A stretch of DNA of 64,000 nt, taken from Microbacterium sp. Leaf151 (GTDB lineage Bacteria > Actinomycetota > Actinomycetes > Actinomycetales > Microbacteriaceae). The notes under the pieces are model-generated. The model worked only from the letters and a program-made list of their open reading frames with translations, did no database searches and had not been told where the DNA came from. Each line of letters begins with the position of its first letter. The first letter of the stretch is position 1. A program made the translations under genes and the position numbers. Shown piece after piece: positions 53,418 through 64,000 of the stretch. The stretch spans positions 62,001-126,000 of the forward strand of contig NZ_LMOR01000004.1 of NCBI RefSeq assembly GCF_001424225.1, given 5' to 3'.

Positions 53418-54983
53418 TCAGCCCGGCGCGCTCGCGGTCACCGGATCCATGGCGACCAGCGCCCCCGACGGCATCCGCGCCGTACCGGTGATGAGCACCG
53501 TGTACGCGTGCCCCGGCTGCCGGTCGGTGAAGACGGTCGACGAGCGTGAGCCCGAGACGGTGACCGGGTACTCCCGCCCCGTGGTCGTGTCGGTGACGGT
53601 GAGCGCGAACGAGGTGAACGAACCGATGTCGTTGGTGGCCCACGTGATGGCGAGACCGGCGGCGTCCGTGGAGACCGTGAGCGAGGCGATGCGGGGAATG
53701 CCGGCAATGGCGGCCACGAGGTCGGGCGTGCCGGCGGGGAGGCCTGAGATGTGCCCCGTCGCGGCAGCGGTGGTGAGTTCCTGCTGCACCTCCGCCGTCG
53801 CCCACGTGGGGTGGAGCTGAAGCAGTCGGGCGGCAAGTCCCGCGACGTGGGGAGACGCCATCGAGGTGCCGCTGATGGTGTTGGTCGTCGAGCCGATCCA
53901 CGTCGAGGTGATGTCGGAGCCCGGGGCGAGGATGTCGACGCACGAGCCGAAGTTGCTGTACCAGGCGAGAGCCCGCTCCGTGTCGAACGCTCCCACGGTC
54001 AGAGGTGCGGGAGCGCTCGCCGGGGAGACGTTGCACGCGTCCTGCGCCTCGTTGCCCGCGGCGACGACGACGACGAACCCCGCCTCGACGAGGTCGGTGG
54101 CGAATTCGTCGACCAGGCTGATCTGGGGACTTCCCAGGCTCATGTTCACCACCGACTGCGCGGAGTCGTTGTTCTGCTCGATCCAGAGCATCCCGTACAG
54201 CACGTCGATGATCGATCCCGTGCGGCCGCACCCCAGCACGCGGACCGGCACGATCCGCACGTCCTTCGCGACCCCGTAGGTGGTGCTGCCGATCGTGCCG
54301 GCGACGTGGGTGCCGTGACCGTTGCAGTCCTCGGTGCCGCGACCGTCGCCGACCTCGTCGTGACCGGCGGCGACATCCACGCGACCGCCGAAGTCGGGAT
54401 GGTCGGACTGCACCCCGCTGTCGACCACGAACGCGGTGACCCCCGCACCGGTCGAGTCGTACAGGTAGGCGTTGTCGCCGACGGCGCTCGAGTTGTCGAC
54501 CGCGTCCAGCCCCCACGAAGGAACCGGCGTCTGGGCCTGGTCGGCGGAGACAAGGTCGTTCGGGATGACCGTGGCTTCGGGAAGCGCGTCACGCACCGCG
54601 GCGACGTCGGTCTCGCGGACGGCGGCGTACGCCACGTCATCGAGCGTGCGGGGGCTCACCACCGTGACACCGGGGAGGGACTGCAACTGCTCGAGCCGGT
54701 CGGCGGGGACCGCGACGAGGTCGTACGACAGTTTGATCCGCAGGCGCTCCTCGTCGGTGGCATCCGCGGGGATGCCGAGGGGTGCCGACCAGGCTTCCGT
54801 CGGCGCGGGGCTCGGTGTCGCGGGGGCGGGCTGCGCCGCACGTACCTCGGAGGTCGGGACCGACCGCGTGTCGTCGACGATCGGACGGATCGCGGAGCCC
54901 ACGCCGGCGACGACGAGCAGCACACCGAGGAGGCCGAGCGCCCCCCACCGGCGCCTGTGGGTGGGTCGGTGACGCTGCGACAC
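53418..54983 (-). CDS. Secreted S8 (subtilisin-like) serine protease
   Basis: A 521-residue exported protease. N-terminal signal or anchor (about 11-31), a propeptide-like region (about 80-150), and a catalytic domain with D188 (FVVDSGVQSDHPDFGG), H223 (CNGHGTHVAGTIG), N311 (AAGNEAQDACN) and S374 (SGTSMASPHVAGLAA). Paired cysteines at about 220/252 and 317/348 suggest disulfides. A fibronectin-III-like domain covers about 430-520. GTG start at 54981-54983 with AAGGAG upstream. It starts 20 bases after the stop of an exported four-repeat protein and is presumably co-transcribed with it. Confidence 0.92.
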   Translation of the reverse strand: MSQRHRPTHRRRWGALGLLGVLLVVAGVGSAIRPIVDDTRSVPTSEVRAAQPAPATPSPAPTEAWSAPLGIPADATDEERLRIKLSYDLVAVPADRLEQLQSLPGVTVVSPRTLDDVAYAAVRETDVAAVRDALPEATVIPNDLVSADQAQTPVPSWGLDAVDNSSAVGDNAYLYDSTGAGVTAFVVDSGVQSDHPDFGGRVDVAAGHDEVGDGRGTEDCNGHGTHVAGTIGSTTYGVAKDVRIVPVRVLGCGRTGSIIDVLYGMLWIEQNNDSAQSVVNMSLGSPQISLVDEFATDLVEAGFVVVVAAGNEAQDACNVSPASAPAPLTVGAFDTERALAWYSNFGSCVDILAPGSDITSTWIGSTTNTISGTSMASPHVAGLAARLLQLHPTWATAEVQQELTTAAATGHISGLPAGTPDLVAAIAGIPRIASLTVSTDAAGLAITWATNDIGSFTSFALTVTDTTTGREYPVTVSGSRSSTVFTDRQPGHAYTVLITGTARMPSGALVAMDPVTASAPG

Positions 54984-55003: not shown

Positions 55004-56380
55004 TCAGCACGACGCCACCGCCGAGGCGAGGGGCACGACGACGCGCGTGGCCCCGCGCGATGCGGGTGATGGGGCCCCGACGGCGGTGACCTCGGAGGCG
55101 ACGAGTCCGACCCCGTCCTGGTAGATGTCGGATCCCACGCGGAACAGGTCGGCACCCAACGGAGTCGCCCCCGACGGGACGCCGCGGGCCGCCCGCACGA
55201 CGTTTCCCGACACCATGAGCAGCGCGGCATCCCCCGTCGCCCGGACGACCGGCAGCAGTCGTTCGCCGGCGAAGAACGGGTTGGGGGTGAGTGCGCCCCA
55301 CGCGGAGATCCCGGATGCCACCACCCCCGTGCCGAACGAGGAGGAGCCGTCCCAGCTGACGCGGTGGATCGCGCCCGCGGCGAAGAACAGGTCGTCGGCG
55401 AGGGGTGTCGCACCCGCTGGCGGGCCGCCGGCGGATCCGAACTCGAACGCCGTCCGGGTGTCGCCGTCGGGCAGGCGCAGGAGCCGCGGCGAGCCGTCGG
55501 TCGCGCGATACGGCAGATACGAGCGCCCCGCGGCATCGGCGTCGTGATCGACGAGCTGGCCGCAGAGGTCGACGTCGGACGCGACGAGACCGCCCGCACG
55601 GTGAAGCGCGGAGCCGGAGAGGAACAGGTCCGCGGCGACCGGTGCCGCTCCCGACGGGACGCCCGCGACAGCGGTGACCGCGCCGGAGACGGTGTCGAAG
55701 ACCGCCGCGCTGCCGTCGACGCGCCGCAGCGGCAGCAGGAACGCGGTGGCATCGCCGACCGCGGGCGCGAGGGCCCCGACGGCGTCGATCCCGGTCGCGA
55801 CGGCGCCCACGCCCGCGCGGTACAGCACGCCCGACGACAGGTACAGGTCGAGGGCGACGGGCGACGCGCCGACCGGCACGAGGGAGGCGTCGGCGAGCCC
55901 CCGCGGCGATGACAGCAGGCGCGCATCGAACGACGTCAGCGTCGCCGTCGCCCCCGTCGCCCCTGAGGTGGTGGCCGCGATGGTCCCGACCGCGCCGCCC
56001 GCGGGAACGTGGACCGAGCCGCACGGGGCGGAGCCGTCGGCCCCGGTCAGGATCGTCGCGGTGACGGCGCCGCCGTCGAAGGTGTATCCCCCGGCCAGCT
56101 GCAGCGTCACGCTCGCTCCGGCGATGGCGTCGACGCCGTCGGAGAGACGCACGACGACGTCGGTGAAGACGCCGCAGGCGACGCCGGCGTACGACGTCGA
56201 CGAGAACGACAGCACGGGACCCGAGACGGCTGCCGCCGGCGACGCCGAGATGAGAGCAATCGCCGGAACCGCCCACGCGGCGGCGTGGAGGACCGCGCGA
56301 CGACCGGGAGCCGCGTGCGGGACCGCGCGATGACCGGACACGGTGGCATCCCGGTGCGAGGGATCAGAGGGGTGGGACAC
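55004..56380 (-). CDS. Exported protein with an Ig-like domain and four internal repeats
   Basis: A 458-residue protein not recognised as a named family. A signal peptide with a twin-arginine (GRRAVLHAAAWAVPAIALISASPAAA, about 26-51) is followed by a beta-rich Ig-like domain (about 54-155) with two cysteines (C69, C120). Four repeats of about 60-80 residues then begin near 168, 240, 318 and 399; each starts with a G-x-P-x-GA-x-P(V/L)-x-x-DL(F/Y) motif and contains a later VAS/VAT(G/S) element and usually LLP. The last two residues are Ser-Cys. Start: GTG at 56378-56380 with AAAGGA upstream. It precedes the subtilisin gene. Confidence 0.75.
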   Translation of the reverse strand: MSHPSDPSHRDATVSGHRAVPHAAPGRRAVLHAAAWAVPAIALISASPAAAVSGPVLSFSSTSYAGVACGVFTDVVVRLSDGVDAIAGASVTLQLAGGYTFDGGAVTATILTGADGSAPCGSVHVPAGGAVGTIAATTSGATGATATLTSFDARLLSSPRGLADASLVPVGASPVALDLYLSSGVLYRAGVGAVATGIDAVGALAPAVGDATAFLLPLRRVDGSAAVFDTVSGAVTAVAGVPSGAAPVAADLFLSGSALHRAGGLVASDVDLCGQLVDHDADAAGRSYLPYRATDGSPRLLRLPDGDTRTAFEFGSAGGPPAGATPLADDLFFAAGAIHRVSWDGSSSFGTGVVASGISAWGALTPNPFFAGERLLPVVRATGDAALLMVSGNVVRAARGVPSGATPLGADLFRVGSDIYQDGVGLVASEVTAVGAPSPASRGATRVVVPLASAVASC

Positions 56381-56642
56381 GGGTGGCGGTCCTTTCTGTG
56401 CCGACCGCACCGGGTGCGGGGCGGGGCGGACGACGTCGCCGCGAGCATGCCCCACCGTCGGCGCAGTGCCCTCGCTCGTCGGACCGCGCGAGACGGGGTG
56501 AGGGCGGAGGAGGTGGCACCCTGTCCCGAGTCGGCGGGCTTCCCGCGCCCCGGCCACCGATACCCGCGCCGTCGTCCGATTCACCCGCCCCCTCGCCCGC
56601 CATGCGCGCGCCTCTCGAATCGTGGCCGCACGGGCCCCCCGG

Positions 56643-56655: not shown

Positions 56656-58131
56656 GTGACCCGCACCCGCGCCGAAGCCGCCTACCTGCGCTCGATCACG
56701 GCGTTCAAGAACCCCACGCTCGATCTGCTGCACGGTCGGTTCGCCCCCTTCGTCGTGGCCGTGCTCTCCGTGGTGTTCTCACCCGACAGATCCGCCGTGG
56801 CCGTCGCCGACGCGCACGTCGAGGTCGCCGGGGCCATCGACGAGCTGCGCGCCGCCGGTCTCGACACCGACGACGACCGTCGCATCCCCGCCGGTTCCGC
56901 GCGGGAGATCTGCCGCGGATGGGTGCGGGTGGGCTGGTTGGGCCTGCAGATCGAGGACGACGTCGAGGTGTACCGCCTGTCAGCGCACGCCGTGGGGGCT
57001 CTCGAGATCGCCGGTCGCGCGGGCGGCGGTCGGGCCCGCGTGTCGGGCTCTCGCGTGCGCACGCTGCTCGAGGCGGTCGAGCGGCTCGCCCGCGACGCCG
57101 AGAGCGACCCCGACCGTCGTCGCGAGATGCTGCTCGCGGAGCGGGAAGCCATCGACGCCGAGCTCGCCGCGCTGAACGAGGGTGTCGTCGAACCGCTCGA
57201 CGACGAGCACCTCCTGGAGGAGGCCGAGAACGTCATCCATCTCGCCCGCGAGCTCCCGGCCGACTTCTCGCGCGTGGCCGAATCGATCGCCGCCATGCAG
57301 CGCGATGTCGTCGCGGAGCTCCGCCGCGACGTGCGCCCCACGGGCGAGGTGCTGCGCGAATACCTCGAACGCGGCCGTCAGGTGATGCAGGCCACCCCCG
57401 AGGGCCGGGCGTTCCAGGGGGCGCTGCGCCTGATCGGCGATCCGGAGCACATCGACGACCTGACCGACCAGCTGCACGCCGTGCTCACCCAGCCCTTCTC
57501 GCGGCTGATGACCCCCGACCAGCGGGGCGAATTGGATGCCATCGCCCGTCGTGTCGAGGCGGGGGTGCAGGAGGTGCTCACCGCCCAGCGGCGCGCCTCG
57601 CACGTCATCACCGCGCAGGTGCGCACGCACGACCCCATCCGCGACCGCCAGGTCGACGACCTGCTGCGCGGAGTCATGGCGGGGCTTCACCGCTGGAGCC
57701 AGACGCGCGTACCCGGACGCGTGGAGCCCGTACGCACCCTGCCGCTCGCCGACATCGGGCATCTCCGGCAGTCGCTCAGCGACGTCCGTCCGAGCGGTGC
57801 ACCCGAGCCCCTGGCATCCGAGGATCCCGATGCGGAGTTCGCCGGCGTCGACACCCGCGCCTGGGGCGGACCGCACTACGCCGAACTCGAGGCGTACGTC
57901 GCCACCCTCGGCCGGGGCTTCGACCTGGCGACCGCGTTCGCCGGTGCCGATGCCGGCACCCGCCGCCCGGTCGACCTGGTGGGCCTCCTCGAGATCATGC
58001 ACCGCGGCGGCCTGACCGAGACGGACGACGTCTCGATCGTCGAGGCCGTGCGCCCCGACGGCACGACGCGGCGCTTCGCGTTCGGGGCGGTCAGAGCAGA
58101 GAACCTCAGAGAAACGGATGCCGATGACTGA
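56656..58131 (+). CDS. jetA: Wadjet/Mks kleisin-like subunit JetA (MksF, DUF3375)
   Basis: A 491-residue DUF3375 protein. It begins [41 protein letters not shown], the family start, then a winged-helix-like region, long helical segments ([38 protein letters not shown]) and [20 protein letters not shown]. In Wadjet type I / MksBEF complexes this is the kleisin that bridges the SMC heads. GTG at 56656 is chosen by the conserved start and the TAGACT box. Its end overlaps jetB. Confidence 0.88.
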
Positions 58132-58831
58132 CGTGGACCTTCGAACACCCGAAACCGACTCCCCGGTGTTCATCGCCCCCGTCGCGATGGAGAACGACCC
58201 CGACGCGCTGTTCGCCGGCGACCGCGGCATCCTGGATGCCGAGGTGCGGCGCGTGCTCGTGCGCATTCTGCAGCGCCGATTCCTGCTCGCTGAGAACTCC
58301 CCCGCCGAGTGGAAGCTGCTGATCGAGCACCAGCAGAGGATCGAGTCGCGTCTGAACGACCTGTTCGTGCGTCTCGTGGTGGATCACTCCCGGGGCGTGG
58401 CGTACAAGGAGCAGGTCCGCAGCGACGAACTCGACGTGCCGATCCTGTTGAAGGACGAGGCGTATTCGCGCGCCGAGACGCTGGTGCTCGTCTACCTGCG
58501 CACGGTGTTCCAACGCGAGACCACGGCCGGTACCGCCTCGGCCCGCGTCGACGTCGAAGAGGTCGAGCAGACCGTGCTGACCTACTTCGCCGAGAGCGAC
58601 GGCACCCGCGCCAGCCAGCAGCGTGCCGTGCGCACCGCGATCGCGCGCCTGGACCGCGAGGGCATCGTCGAGGAGGAGTCCGAGGGCCGCTACCGCATCG
58701 GCCCCCTGATCGAAGTCGTGCTGAGCGCCGAGACGCTCCGCGAGCTCCAGCAGTGGCTCGACGAACAGACACAGGGCTCGCCCGTCGAGGTCCCGGCATC
58801 CGAGACTCCCGGGAAGGATCTCCTCTCATGA
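58118..58831 (+). CDS. jetB: Wadjet/Mks KITE-like subunit JetB (MksE, DUF4194)
   Basis: A 237-residue DUF4194 protein with two winged-helix-like halves: [59 protein letters not shown], then [23 protein letters not shown], and the C-terminal [42 protein letters not shown] subunits bind the kleisin. ATG at 58118 (alternative 58124) overlaps the end of jetA; the stop overlaps the jetC ATG (ATGA), so all three subunits are translationally linked. Confidence 0.88.
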
Positions 58832-61800
58832 CCATGCTCGACACGCTCTTCGGGCTGATCCCCGCCGCGTCCCGCGGGCAGCAGTGGGTAGCCGAAGACC
58901 TGCAGTTGGTGAACTGGGGCGGCTACGACGGCACGCACCGCGTGCGCTTCGCGCCGACGGCGACGCTGCTGTGCGGCGGATCGGGATCGGGCAAGTCGAC
59001 GCTCATGGACGCGTACGTGGCGTTGATGATGCCCCACACGACCCCCTTCAACGGCGCGTCGAACGGCGCGGTGGTGGGGCGCCCTCGCGGGCAAGAACAG
59101 CGCAACATCCTGTCGTACGGCCGCGGCAAGCTCGACGAGTCGCGCACCGACGAGGGCACGAAGGTGCGGGTGCTGCGCGGCGACGGAGTCGACACGTGGA
59201 CGGCGATCGCGATGACGTGGGCCGACCACGACGGCGCCCGGTTCACGGCGGTGCGGGCGTGGTACATCCCGGCCTCGGCGCGCACCCTCGACGACGCCGT
59301 CAAAGTGCGGGCGACCGTGCACGGAGTGTTCGACCTGCGGGCGCTGGAGCCGGCCGCGCGCACCCATCTGTCGGATGCCGCGGTGCGGGCGACGGGCTTG
59401 GACACGCTCCCGACCGACCGCGAGTTCTCGGCGCGGCTGCACGCGGTGCTGGGCATCGGCGCAGCGGGGTCGGGGGCGAAGGCGATGAGCCTGCTCGCCC
59501 GCATCCAGGCCGGGCAGCAGATCACCACCGTCGACGACCTCTACAAGCGCATGGTGCTCGAAGAACCCGAGACCCTCGCTGTCGCCGACGCCGTCGTGTC
59601 GCACTTCGACGGGCTCGAGTCCACGCGCACGCGCATGCTCGAGGCACGGCAGCAGGTGCGGGCCCTGCAACCGATCCGCGCGATGAGGACGCGTATCGAC
59701 GAGGCCGCGGAGCGCCTCCGCCTCATCGACGCGCTCGGACGCTTCGGCGACCCCGCGTCGCGCGCGTCGCTCTGGCGCGCGCGGCGACGGGTCGACCTGC
59801 TCGGCTCCGTCGAGGCGGAACTCCGCGTCCGCACGCACTCCACCGACGCTCTCGTGCGCGAACGACAGGGGCTGGCGGATGCGGCCGAGGCCGAACGCGA
59901 GGGACTCGGCGACGTGCTGCGCGCAGCCGGCGGCGACCGGCTCGACGCCGCCCAGCGGGAGCTTCGCGGACTCGAGCGTCGCCTGGCGGGGATGGAACGC
60001 GATCGCGAGCGGTTCGAGGCGGCGTTGGCGGTGCTCTCGGTCGAGGTGACAACCGAGAAGCAGTTCGCCGCGGTGGAGGACGACGCGCGGCGCACCCTCG
60101 CGGACGCGGATGCCAAGACCGCCGTCCGCGAGGCTTTCGTCGCGGCCAGCGGCACCCACACCGACCTGCGCCAGAAGCTCGCCGCGCTCGAAGCCGAGCA
60201 CCGCCGCACCCAGACGCGCGACGACAACATCCCGCAGCGCCTGCACGAGGCGCGCGAGGCTCTGGCCGCGGCAGCCGGTCTCACCGCCGCCGAGCTGCCC
60301 TTCGTCGCCGAGCTCGTCGACGTCCGCACCGAGTACGAGCCGTGGCGCGGGGCGTTCACGCTGGCCCTCGGTGGCTTCGCGACGACGCTGCTGGTGGATG
60401 CCGCGCACCTGGCATCCTTCCGGTCCGCGATCGACGGCGTGCGACTGTCGGAACGTCTGCGGTTCGAGGGGGTGTCGACGGGGCTCCCCGAGCGCACCGG
60501 CCTCGACCCCGCGACGCTGCCCGGACGCCTGGAGTACCGCCGCTCCCCCTTCACCGGCTGGCTGCAGGACCGGCTCGAGCAGCAGTTCGCGTTCCTGTGC
60601 GTTGATTCCTCCGCTGAGCTGGCCGCCCACCGCCTCGCGCTGACCGTGTCGGGGCAGACGAGTCAGGGTTCGCGCGGCGCGCACGGCGGATCGACCCGCC
60701 AGAGCGTGCTCGGATTCTCCTCCCGTGTGCGCCTGTCCGAGCTCGGCGAGCAGATCGTCGCGGTACGTCGCGACCTCGCCACGGCGAAGGCCGCGGTCGA
60801 GACGGCGGCCGCAGCCCTCGATGCGTTCGACGCACGGCGCAGCGCCTTCGAGAAGATCGTCGATCTCTCGTGGGACCAGGTCGACGTGGCATCCGTTCAA
60901 CGCGATCTGGACCGCTGGAACGAGACGATCGTCGAGATCACGGCCGGCAACCCCCGCATCGCCGAGCTGCAGGAACAGATCTCGGGTACCCGCGCCCGCG
61001 CCGCGCGGCTGCGCGAAGAGATCGGCGGAGCCAAGACCGAGCAGCAGGCGCTCGCCGCGCGGTGGGCCGAGATCACGGATGATGTGGATGCCGCGCAGAT
61101 CCTGCTCGAACGTGCGGACGATGCGGGAGTCGCCCTCTCGGACGACGAGCACGCCTATCTCGACAGCCTCTTCGTGGCGCCGGGCGCGTCCGATGCCACG
61201 CCGTCGCAGCTGCTGGCACGGTTCGACGCGGCCCTCGAATCCGCATCGAAGCGTCTGCTCGAGGAGCAACGGGCGGCGCAGGAGACCTGGGCCGACCAGC
61301 GCGAGAGCCTGCGACGGACGTTGACGGCGTTCATCGACCGGTGGCCGAGTCCCAACCTGCTCGCCGATCCCGACGAGTCGCTCGGCGACTTCGAGCGGAT
61401 CCTCGCCGACCTCGAGGCCAGCGGCCTGCATGAACTCGAGGCGGAGTGGCGGGATTCGCTGCTGCGGCTGTCGGGCAACGACCTCACGAACCTCGACTCC
61501 GCGCTGACGCGGGCCATGCGTGAGATCCGCGAGCGCATCGCCCCGATCAACGACATCATGCAGGACCTGCCGTTCTACGACGACGCGCACCGTCTGCAGA
61601 TCGTGCCGCGCGAGAGCCAGTCGGAGGTGCGTCGACGGTTCCGACGGGAGCTGCGCGATGTGCGTGCCGCGATCGACGCGGCAGGGTCCGACGAGGAACG
61701 CGAGGCCGTGTACGCACGGATGGCCCGGCTCATCGATCGCATCCGCCCGACGGCGCCGGACTTCGCCGACCTCGTCGACGTGCGCAACCACGTGCGGGTG

Positions 61801-62175
61801 AGCGCCGAGCGCTTCCGCGCCGAGACCGGTGAGCACGTCGCCCTGTACGACCACATCGGCGAGAAGTCGGGTGGTGAATCGCAAGAGCTCATCGCGTTCA
61901 TCGTCGGCGCAGCACTCCGGTATCAGCTCGGGGATGCCGGAGCCGAGCGCCCTCGCTACGCGCCGGTGTTCCTGGACGAGGCGCTCATCAAAGCCGACGC
62001 GCACTTCACCAAGCGCGCGATCGGTGCGTGGCGGGGGCTCGGTTTCCAGCTCGTCATCGGCGCACCGAACGACAAGTACAGCGCGATCGAACCGCACGTG
62101 GACGTCGAGTACGACATCTTGAAGGACACGCGGGGGCGCTCGTGGGCGAAGGCGAAGGTGGGGGTCGCGGGCTGA
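58828..62175 (+). CDS. jetC: Wadjet/Mks SMC-like ATPase JetC (MksB)
   Basis: An 1115-residue SMC/Rad50-like ATPase. Walker A is GGSGSGKST (50-58), preceded by [21 protein letters not shown]. Two long coiled-coil regions (about 280-480 and 680-900) flank a hinge-like region around TALGLGF-type strands (about 520-600). The C-terminal signature motif KSGGESQ (1013-1019), Walker B FLDEA (D1050, E1051) and a final [16 protein letters not shown]-loop/switch region are intact. In Wadjet the complex extrudes DNA loops and recognises small circular DNA. ATG overlaps jetB. No jetD follows in the window. Confidence 0.92.
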
Positions 62176-62642
62176 GGGCGACGCACACGCGGGCGCTCGC
62201 GCGCGACGGCGACGGTGAGGCCGCGGGCCGACGCGGAGCGGCCGGGGTTCGTTCGGGGGCCGTCGCGGTGGAGGGTCGCGAGCGGGTCGCCGGGGGTATC
62301 TGGGGCTTCTTACCGCGGCGGTCGCCGTGGATCGTCGCGGTCAGGACGCTGGCAATACCTGGGGATTCATGCCGCGGCGGTCGTCGCGGAGGGTCGCGGC
62401 TTGGACGCCCGGGGTACCTGGGGATTCATGCCGCGGCGGTCGTACGCCAGGAAGAAGGGCGTGTTCGGAGGATCGCCTCCCCGACACCCGTCCCATCTCG
62501 CCCGATCGAAACCAGCCCTGCGCCGACAACTTTCTTCCGAGACGTCACAGTGCACGCGGCGCCCCCGGAAGCGGCACCGATATCGCCCCTCCCGCCGGAC
62601 TCACGCGTCGTCCAGGGAAGCGGCGACGTGTCGTCGCCATCG
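62176..62642. other. Gap after jetC (467 bases) with a 59-bp repeat
   Basis: No gene is supported, and in particular no jetD (MksG) start. It holds 2.6 copies of a 59-bp direct repeat (62297-62448). The remainder shows no clear promoter or terminator, although the flanking genes converge. Confidence 0.75.
62297..62448. repeat. 59-bp direct repeat downstream of jetC
   Basis: Units begin at 62297, 62356 and 62415 (the last partial). Each opens with TA(T/C)CTGGGG and contains CCGCGGCGGTCG; units 2 and 3 are identical over their first about 29 bases. The CCGCGGCGG core can pair with CGCGG later in the unit. Confidence 0.85.
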
Positions 62643-64000
62643 CTAGAACGGCGGTGGGTCCTCCGCGATCTGCGCGCCCAGCGGAGACGTCCAGCGCAGG
62701 TCGCCGGTATCGGGGTCGCGGGACGGATGCCAACGGGATTCGTGGCGAAGGCGGTGATGATGTCGACACTCTGGCGCAAGGTTGTCGTCATCAGTTCTGC
62801 CGCCGTCGATCCACGCCGTGAGATGGTCGAGATCGCAGTCTCGGGCGGAGCGTCCGCACCCGGGAAACACGCACGTCGGTGACGTGACCCCGAGCCAACG
62901 GCGCAGAGCGGTGGGCACCCGGTAAGTCGAACGGTCGAGCGCGAGCGGAACGCCGGTGAGCGGATGGGTGAGGACGCGGACCCACGAAGTCGCCTCGCCC
63001 GCGAGCCGACGAGCGGTATCGAGGTCGATCGGACCGTAGCCGTCGAGGACGGCGGGCTCCGTGCCCGCGCCCAGCAGGGTGAGCGCGGGGACGGTCACGA
63101 CGACCGCCGCGCGCCGCGTCGACGCCGGGGTCGCCGCGGTCGGTGAGAGGGGTCCCGCCGGGGCAGCGGGCGTCGAACCACGGACCGCCGAACCGCCGCT
63201 CCCCGAAGCAGTGCCCACCGAACCACTGCTCCCCGGAGCACGCGATCCCGAGCTACGGAGGGCGGAAGTTCCGTCAGCTGAAGAATCCGTCTGCGTTGCC
63301 GGCGTCGTCAACGGCGTGGGCTGCGCGGGCGGCGCGGGCGACGTGGTCACGAAGTCGGCGAACACATCGGCTCGTAGCTGTGCGAGCGTCCGGTCCTCGT
63401 CAGCGGCGACCCTCAGGTGACGGGCGGCCCGATCGATCCGTGCCATGGCGGCGGCGGCGCGATCCACGGGCAGAAGGGCCGAGAGCGTCGCCATACCGTC
63501 GAGTTCGGCGGTGAGCCACACGCCGCGGTCACGCGTCGCGCGTCGATGCCGGGCCTCGAGAGACTCTCTGTGCACTCGCTCTCGCAAGGAGCGAGCGGCG
63601 GCAACGAAGCGGGCGGGCGGGAGGTGGAGCGCACGATCCAGCGCGCCTTCGTCGAAGGCCCGCCACGATTCATGTCCCTCAGACGCAGGCGTTGCACAGG
63701 AGGGATCCGGGGTCAGCGCGCCATCGCCCGCAGGGCAGTCATCGTTGGCCGAGTCCAGCTCGGCGGAGCCGAGCCCGAGCTCATCCGGTGACTCCGGCGG
63801 TGTGGCGGTCGGTACGGCCACCGTCACGACTTCCGCGTCCGGCAGCGACGTCGCCAAGCGTGCCGACTCGATCGCGTGACGCTCGGAGATGCTCCCCTCC
63901 ACGAATGCCGCCCAGACCTCGGGGCAGCGCGTCTGCAGCGTGTCGGAGTTGGCGGCTCGCGCTCGCACGGTCTGTTCCGACACGCAGAGTCTCGTCGCCA
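62643..64000 (-). CDS. DUF222/HNH endonuclease (13E12 REP type), 5' end beyond the window
   Basis: The frame is open to the right edge (ATRLCVSEQTVRARAANSDTL), so at least 450 residues are visible and the N terminus is missing. The DUF222 helical region (RATRDRGVWLTAELDGMATLSALLPVDRAAAAMARIDRAA) is followed by a low-complexity Ser/Gly/Ala/Thr linker and a C-terminal HNH domain: SPTCVFPGCGRSARDCDLDHLTAWIDGGRTDDDNLAPECRHHHRLRH. Such genes are repeated many times in actinobacterial genomes; their role is unproven. It converges on jetC with the 59-bp repeat between. Confidence 0.9.
   Translation of the reverse strand, partial: ATRLCVSEQTVRARAANSDTLQTRCPEVWAAFVEGSISERHAIESARLATSLPDAEVVTVAVPTATPPESPDELGLGSAELDSANDDCPAGDGALTPDPSCATPASEGHESWRAFDEGALDRALHLPPARFVAAARSLRERVHRESLEARHRRATRDRGVWLTAELDGMATLSALLPVDRAAAAMARIDRAARHLRVAADEDRTLAQLRADVFADFVTTSPAPPAQPTPLTTPATQTDSSADGTSALRSSGSRAPGSSGSVGTASGSGGSAVRGSTPAAPAGPLSPTAATPASTRRAAVVVTVPALTLLGAGTEPAVLDGYGPIDLDTARRLAGEATSWVRVLTHPLTGVPLALDRSTYRVPTALRRWLGVTSPTCVFPGCGRSARDCDLDHLTAWIDGGRTDDDNLAPECRHHHRLRHESRWHPSRDPDTGDLRWTSPLGAQIAEDPPPF

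Follow-up and report, generated by a model that had tools for sequence, protein, structure and literature searches.

What becomes of a plasmid-cutting motor when the gene for its nuclease is gone? The question is raised by an operon near the end of a 64,000-nucleotide stretch of Microbacterium sp. Leaf151 DNA (the window, positions 62001-126000 of contig C4 in the 3.6-Mb genome G000), which encodes the Wadjet proteins JetA, JetB and JetC and no JetD; we refer to this locus as L041. The JetABC part of a type I Wadjet is regarded as a dimeric structural maintenance of chromosomes (SMC) motor, extruding DNA and, on small circles, activating JetD (PMC10586767). MukBEF, and likely MksBEF, have been proposed to descend from a Wadjet-like defence complex (PMC10586767). 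Comparison of the locus with its relatives leads us to conclude that the window operon probably encodes a nuclease-free SMC motor derived from a type I Wadjet and resembling MksBEF, jetD having been lost in an ancestor and the core kept by selection.

A type I Wadjet operon without its nuclease

The features of the locus, in window coordinates, are as follows.

56656..58131, plus strand: JetA/MksF, kleisin (DUF3375), 491 residues, GTG start, TGA stop
58118..58831, plus strand: JetB/MksE, KITE (DUF4194), 237 residues, ATG start, TGA stop
58828..62175, plus strand: JetC/MksB, SMC ATPase, 1115 residues, ATG start, TGA stop
62176..62642, no strand: gap at the jetD position, 467 bases, where jetD sits in JetD-bearing relatives; contains a 59-base tandem repeat
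62643..64000 and continuing past the window, minus strand: DUF222/HNH gene, convergent; a neighbour not judged to be part of the system

The identity of the three Jet genes and their overlapping starts were part of the original prediction, made from the letters of the window, and coordinates, Pfam and PADLOC agree with it: JetA and JetB overlap by 14 bases, JetB and JetC by 4. JetA matches Pfam PF11855 (DUF3375, 2.4e-108), PADLOC JetA1 (709 bits) and the PDB JetA chain 8q72_E (4.7e-12); JetB matches Pfam PF13835 (DUF4194, 1.3e-38), PADLOC JetB1 (373 bits) and the PDB JetB chain 8dk1_E (3.7e-07); JetC matches Pfam SbcC_Walker_B (8.8e-22) and AAA_29 (1.5e-20), PADLOC JetC1 (1707 bits) and the PDB JetC chain 8as8_A (1.9e-49). 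The best PADLOC models for all three are those of type I Wadjet. Walker A, the signature (KSGGESQ) and Walker B (VFLDEA) of JetC, described as intact from the start, are all present. Measured against type I Wadjet, the window has JetA, JetB and a JetC with its ATPase motifs, and lacks a JetD Toprim nuclease in the operon. Among the best 80 of 130 matches, the closest named JetC is that of M. proteolyticum CECT 8356 (97% identity; the window genome's own records may have been left out).

The predicted absence of JetD extends to the genome as a whole. Neither Pfam PF09983 nor PF11795 finds a JetD anywhere in the 3.6 Mb, and both match in Corynebacterium glutamicum, which served as positive control. 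Searching the 3 kb past the window JetC by tblastn with 20 JetD proteins, from related and less related operons, gave no trace of the gene, and a profile built from 20 JetDs has no match anywhere in L041, a locus that extends 6 kb beyond the window. The prediction had allowed that jetD might lie just beyond the window; over those 6 kb it does not. In a first tblastn search many loci of the window's JetA lineage, the window included, seemed to hold JetD remains in the gap. These matches proved to be the JetC end read out of frame: they were spurious because the seeds extended upstream into JetC, and for the window they disappeared when the seeds were trimmed.

JetD-less operons are the usual state of the lineage

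We defined lineage 1 as the window's JetA lineage (at least 56% identity, counted from the rows listed, two of them partial) and lineage 2 as its more distant relatives (32-38% identity). Across 366 Microbacterium genomes, JetA relatives are found in 165 and JetD in 47; lineage-1 JetA occurs in 128. A JetD match lies directly downstream of the lineage-1 operon in just three of these 128 genomes, namely G245 (a complete operon), G042 (an intact JetD with a frameshifted JetC) and G114 (a JetD pseudogene), while 16 have a JetD match of any kind, fragments included, and 112 have none at an E-value of 0.001. For lineage 2, which has 32-35% identity within the genus, JetD adjoins 3 of 11 Microbacterium loci.

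The pattern continues outside the genus. JetA relatives are present in 100 of 398 genomes of the family and JetD in 48, with JetD adjoining four of the 16 lineage-1 loci in other genera (a decayed fragment in G575 left out) and two of the family's 38 lineage-2 loci (contig ends truncate the loci of G539 and G659, and G539 has a JetD on a different contig). At the level of the order, JetC relatives occur in 66 of 159 genomes and JetD in 34. Among 79 named loci (from the best 80 of 130 matches, overlapping the other genomes surveyed and hence not independent), 76 have no JetD match in a flank of at most 3 kb, some flanks being shorter; JetD is a single frame in Schumannella soli, a pseudogene in M. 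helvum and split over two frames in Agromyces humi. M. testaceum StLB037 has the operon without jetD, its JetC being 89-90% identical. Contigs end near the operon in at least G016, G044, G055:C431, G238, G288, G311 and G353, for which adjacency was taken from the whole-genome search. Plasmids carry JetC in five PLSDB records at an E-value of 1e-20, every one below 60% identity.

In this lineage the JetD-less operon is the usual, commoner condition, not an accident of one locus. The original prediction had named a lineage that normally has only MksBEF here as a finding that would tell against it; this is largely what we see.

A distant JetC group (about 28% identity) was also seen in another family of the order (L176, L179, L180, L183, L186 and L187), with no JetD seen; the query used found JetA in none of the six and did not find JetB in five of them.

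An ancestral jetD, repeatedly lost

If JetD-less operons derive from complete ones, was JetD the original partner of the lineage? In a JetD tree of 20 rows, the lineage-1 JetDs form one clade (support 100/99) and the lineage-2 JetDs another (99/96), a split that is also found in JetC, and over both lineages the pairwise identities of JetD and JetC are correlated (Spearman 0.82). The attached JetDs form one clade, as their JetCs do, and JetD was therefore the original partner of the lineage.

A JetC tree of 104 loci requires at least 8 changes of JetD state, or 18 losses if only loss is allowed (15-17 with weak branches collapsed). Adding loci from the order, to 134 rows, gives 11 changes, or 25 losses (23 with weak branches collapsed). 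The smaller tree left out L048, L072, L073, L154, rows without JetA or JetC, rows with stops within the stretch (L062, whose alignment extended beyond the natural stop) and JetCs under 600 residues; the larger left out L072, L073, rows with a stop and short JetCs. In both, L077 was coded as lacking JetD and L059 as having it.

The original prediction proposed comparing the locus in relatives for loss of jetD, and in two of them the loss can be seen. L090 (G173) is the sister of the complete operon L076 and matches it until about 35 bases past the end of the JetC coding sequence; a stretch of 73 bases close to the jetD 3' end is then recognisable at 84% identity, and the intervening 1,013 bp of L076 are absent. 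In L077 (G114), jetD is a pseudogene with its first 251 residues kept and the residues from about 332 in another frame. The window gap itself has no trace of jetD. L059 (G042:C22) has an intact JetD with JetC residues 1-416 and 447-1113 in different frames, which points either to a loss opposite to the usual one or to a misassembly. Judging from these trees and gene remnants, jetD was lost on several separate occasions in the lineage.

The SMC core is retained after loss

Walker A and the signature are present in all 108 JetD-less loci with JetA, JetB and a near-full JetC, a set chosen for long JetC by design, and so is Walker B (108/108); in four loci with seeming stops, the alignment runs past the natural stop. 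The ratio of nonsynonymous to synonymous substitution rates (dN/dS) for jetA, jetB and jetC is 0.014-0.21 across 16 JetD-less pairs, against 0.10-0.15 in a JetD-bearing pair and 0.02-0.21 in mixed pairs, of which one member has JetD and the other does not. In the JetC tree the window locus lies inside a clade of 17 JetD-less loci (support 97) with three genus codes. The window's pairs with L147, L042, L047 and L044 fall inside this clade, and selection has therefore acted on the core after the loss.

A probable nuclease-free motor and its alternatives

The proposed course of events is that the SMC-kleisin-KITE core of a type I Wadjet lost jetD in an ancestor and was afterwards maintained by selection as what may be an ATP-driven, presumably loop-extruding complex without a nuclease. 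JetABC without JetD should not cut DNA; it would serve as an MksBEF-type accessory SMC complex, organising or handling DNA, beside the ordinary SMC that is also present in the window's genome (822 bits), and its substrate might be the chromosome or circular foreign DNA. Assembly of the complex, DNA extrusion by it and a non-cutting action on chromosome or plasmids are our inferences. Of the three options originally offered, the best fit is a three-subunit complex like MksBEF; the evidence does not support a decaying motor, whose frames and motifs are intact and whose dN/dS is low, and a JetD elsewhere in the genome is excluded as far as the two Pfam models can see.

Several observations weigh against this account. 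Within lineage 1 the correlation of JetD and JetC identities is moderate (Spearman 0.48). The loss counts depend on the loss-only assumption, on loci that we chose, and on quick trees that carried long-branch warnings. The JetD of L076 pairs with that of L097, while its JetC pairs with L098 and L099; exchange or regain of JetD in some loci is likely, to judge from such trees, and because this discordance suggests some exchange, the loss-only figures are upper readings. A JetB motif shows no loosening: LFAGDRGIL in the window, it persists in 112 of 114 loci classed as JetD-less (which include the misfiled L073, whose JetB is that of a second operon, one with JetD, and some loci truncated at contig ends) and in 17 of 17 JetD-bearing ones. 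Finally, lineage 1 is patchy in the genus (128/366) and genera are intermixed in the JetC tree, which is more like an accessory or defence system than a housekeeping condensin.

In the window this short motif occupies JetB residues 31-39, directly before the first domain. The JetD contact motif of JetB is given as IFDR (PMC10586767) and is not mapped onto the window JetB, whose PDB alignments begin downstream of the N-terminus; a second PDB query gave no JetB chain.

Because the distribution is patchy and crosses genera, there is room for a form of plasmid control that does not cleave. JetABC may still restrict circular DNA by reeling plasmids in and trapping or silencing them, much as some viral genomes are silenced by Smc5/6, and both the defence-gene-like distribution and the intact core after loss are consistent with this. 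However, all four subunits were required in the systems tested (PMC10586767), and deletion of mksG in C. glutamicum has the same effect on plasmids as deletion of MksB or MksF (PMC10123090); we regard such restriction as possible but rather unlikely. Equally tentative is a broader conjecture, that type I Wadjets of Actinomycetota have repeatedly been turned, by loss of jetD alone, into nuclease-free machines that capture or silence circular foreign DNA and spread between genera as a milder plasmid control.

It is less likely still that JetABC works with a nuclease from another place in the genome, be it the JetD of another Wadjet or an unrelated enzyme. Some JetD match is present in the 16 lineage-1 genomes counted above. 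In one of them, G055, a JetD-less JetABC (L048/L073) is close to a complete JetABCD that lies beyond a DUF222 gene, on contigs presumed to be neighbours (C431 and C430); in G302 a JetD-less JetABC (L078) has a second JetA with a JetD about 12 kb downstream. However, the other 112 genomes, the window's included, have no JetD match, and the genes downstream of the operon are not conserved. Of 115 loci filed as JetD-less (L077 and L073 among them; rough gene calls), 58 have the first gene past JetC on the same strand and 57 on the opposite one, and these genes belong to many unrelated clusters. Besides the Jet genes, no cluster is shared by more than 12 loci; the one with 12 is a shadow frame inside the Jet genes, and the next has 10. 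No conserved replacement adjoining the operon was seen across the 115 loci.

A decaying Wadjet remnant is very improbable. Individual loci do decay: jetD is broken or deleted in L077 and L090, JetC is frameshifted in L059, and G575:C4:458998-459408 is a decayed copy, a JetA fragment with two stops. For the JetD-less operons at large, however, plain decay of the motor is disfavoured because frames and the ATPase motifs of the long-JetC set are intact and dN/dS is low among genomes that share the loss. Least credible of all is the adjoining DUF222/HNH gene as a substitute nuclease, a notion that the original prediction already called unsupported: it is the next gene after JetC in the window and has an HNH-like segment, but it lies on the opposite strand, 467 bases off, and its cluster occurs in just 9 loci, all with lineage-1 JetC, being next after JetC in 5 of them and lying 2.6 kb off in L052 and 7.8 kb off in L078.

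Relation to known systems

The window operon has the same JetA, JetB and JetC families and gene order as type I Wadjet JetABCD and C. glutamicum MksBEFG, from which it differs in lacking the nuclease JetD/MksG. With MksBEF-type systems that lack MksG it shares an SMC, a kleisin and a KITE protein in one operon, and the Pfam MksE model matches JetB (33.9 bits against a cut-off of 27). Escherichia coli MukBEF likewise has these three components without a nuclease, although the window JetC matches the MukB N-terminal model PF04310 only below its cut-off (20.6 against 23 bits). For Pseudomonas aeruginosa MksBEF, one of the closest known systems, a part in chromosome segregation has been reported (PMC7485682); for the window operon it would be conjecture.

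Members of the Wadjet group without JetD have been published before (PMC7617805, PMC10586767). Like the window operon, those of PMC7617805 have no MksG match, and that study used predicted structures of the proteins nearby to check the absence; the excerpts considered speak of 'several' members lacking JetD and make no mention of recurrent loss within a genus. A search of the literature turned up, in the passages it covered, no account of recurrent jetD loss in Actinomycetota. What is added here to the known JetD-less members is the fine scale: frequent separate losses within a genus and family, remains of jetD at two loci, and retention of the core. One tree places close together relatives that have JetD, a broken jetD, pieces of the gene or no trace of it, so that closely related complexes are available for studying how a plasmid cutter turns into a motor without a nuclease. 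Annotators should not take a JetABC match in this group to mean an active Wadjet that cuts plasmids.

Neighbouring genes and repeats

Exactly 467 bases separate the end of JetC from the stop codon of the minus-strand gene (62643), as originally described, and the description of that convergent gene is also upheld: Pfam DUF222 matches at 2.8e-16 and HNH falls just below its cut-off (20.8 against 21.4 bits). In a rough gene call on L041 the gene extends past the window to about 593 residues, with its start near 64424 in window numbering. As a consistent partner of JetC we rejected it on the number of loci (9) and the varying distances given above.

Within the gap, a repeat at 62244-62442 has three copies with 59-base spacing, and its core motif occurs at three places in the genome, all of them here. 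In JetD-less loci, on rough gene calls, tandem arrays (period of at least 12) are commoner after JetC than in other gaps of the same loci (17/75 against 42/518, p 0.0006). Split by orientation, the figures are 14/43 after JetC against 14/92 elsewhere for convergent gaps (p 0.02) and 3/32 against 21/312 for same-strand gaps (p 0.48).

Upstream, a 526-residue frame without a Pfam match runs divergently from JetA on the minus strand (55004-56584), and beyond it, on the same strand at 53418-54980, lies a subtilase (Peptidase_S8, 4.4e-43).

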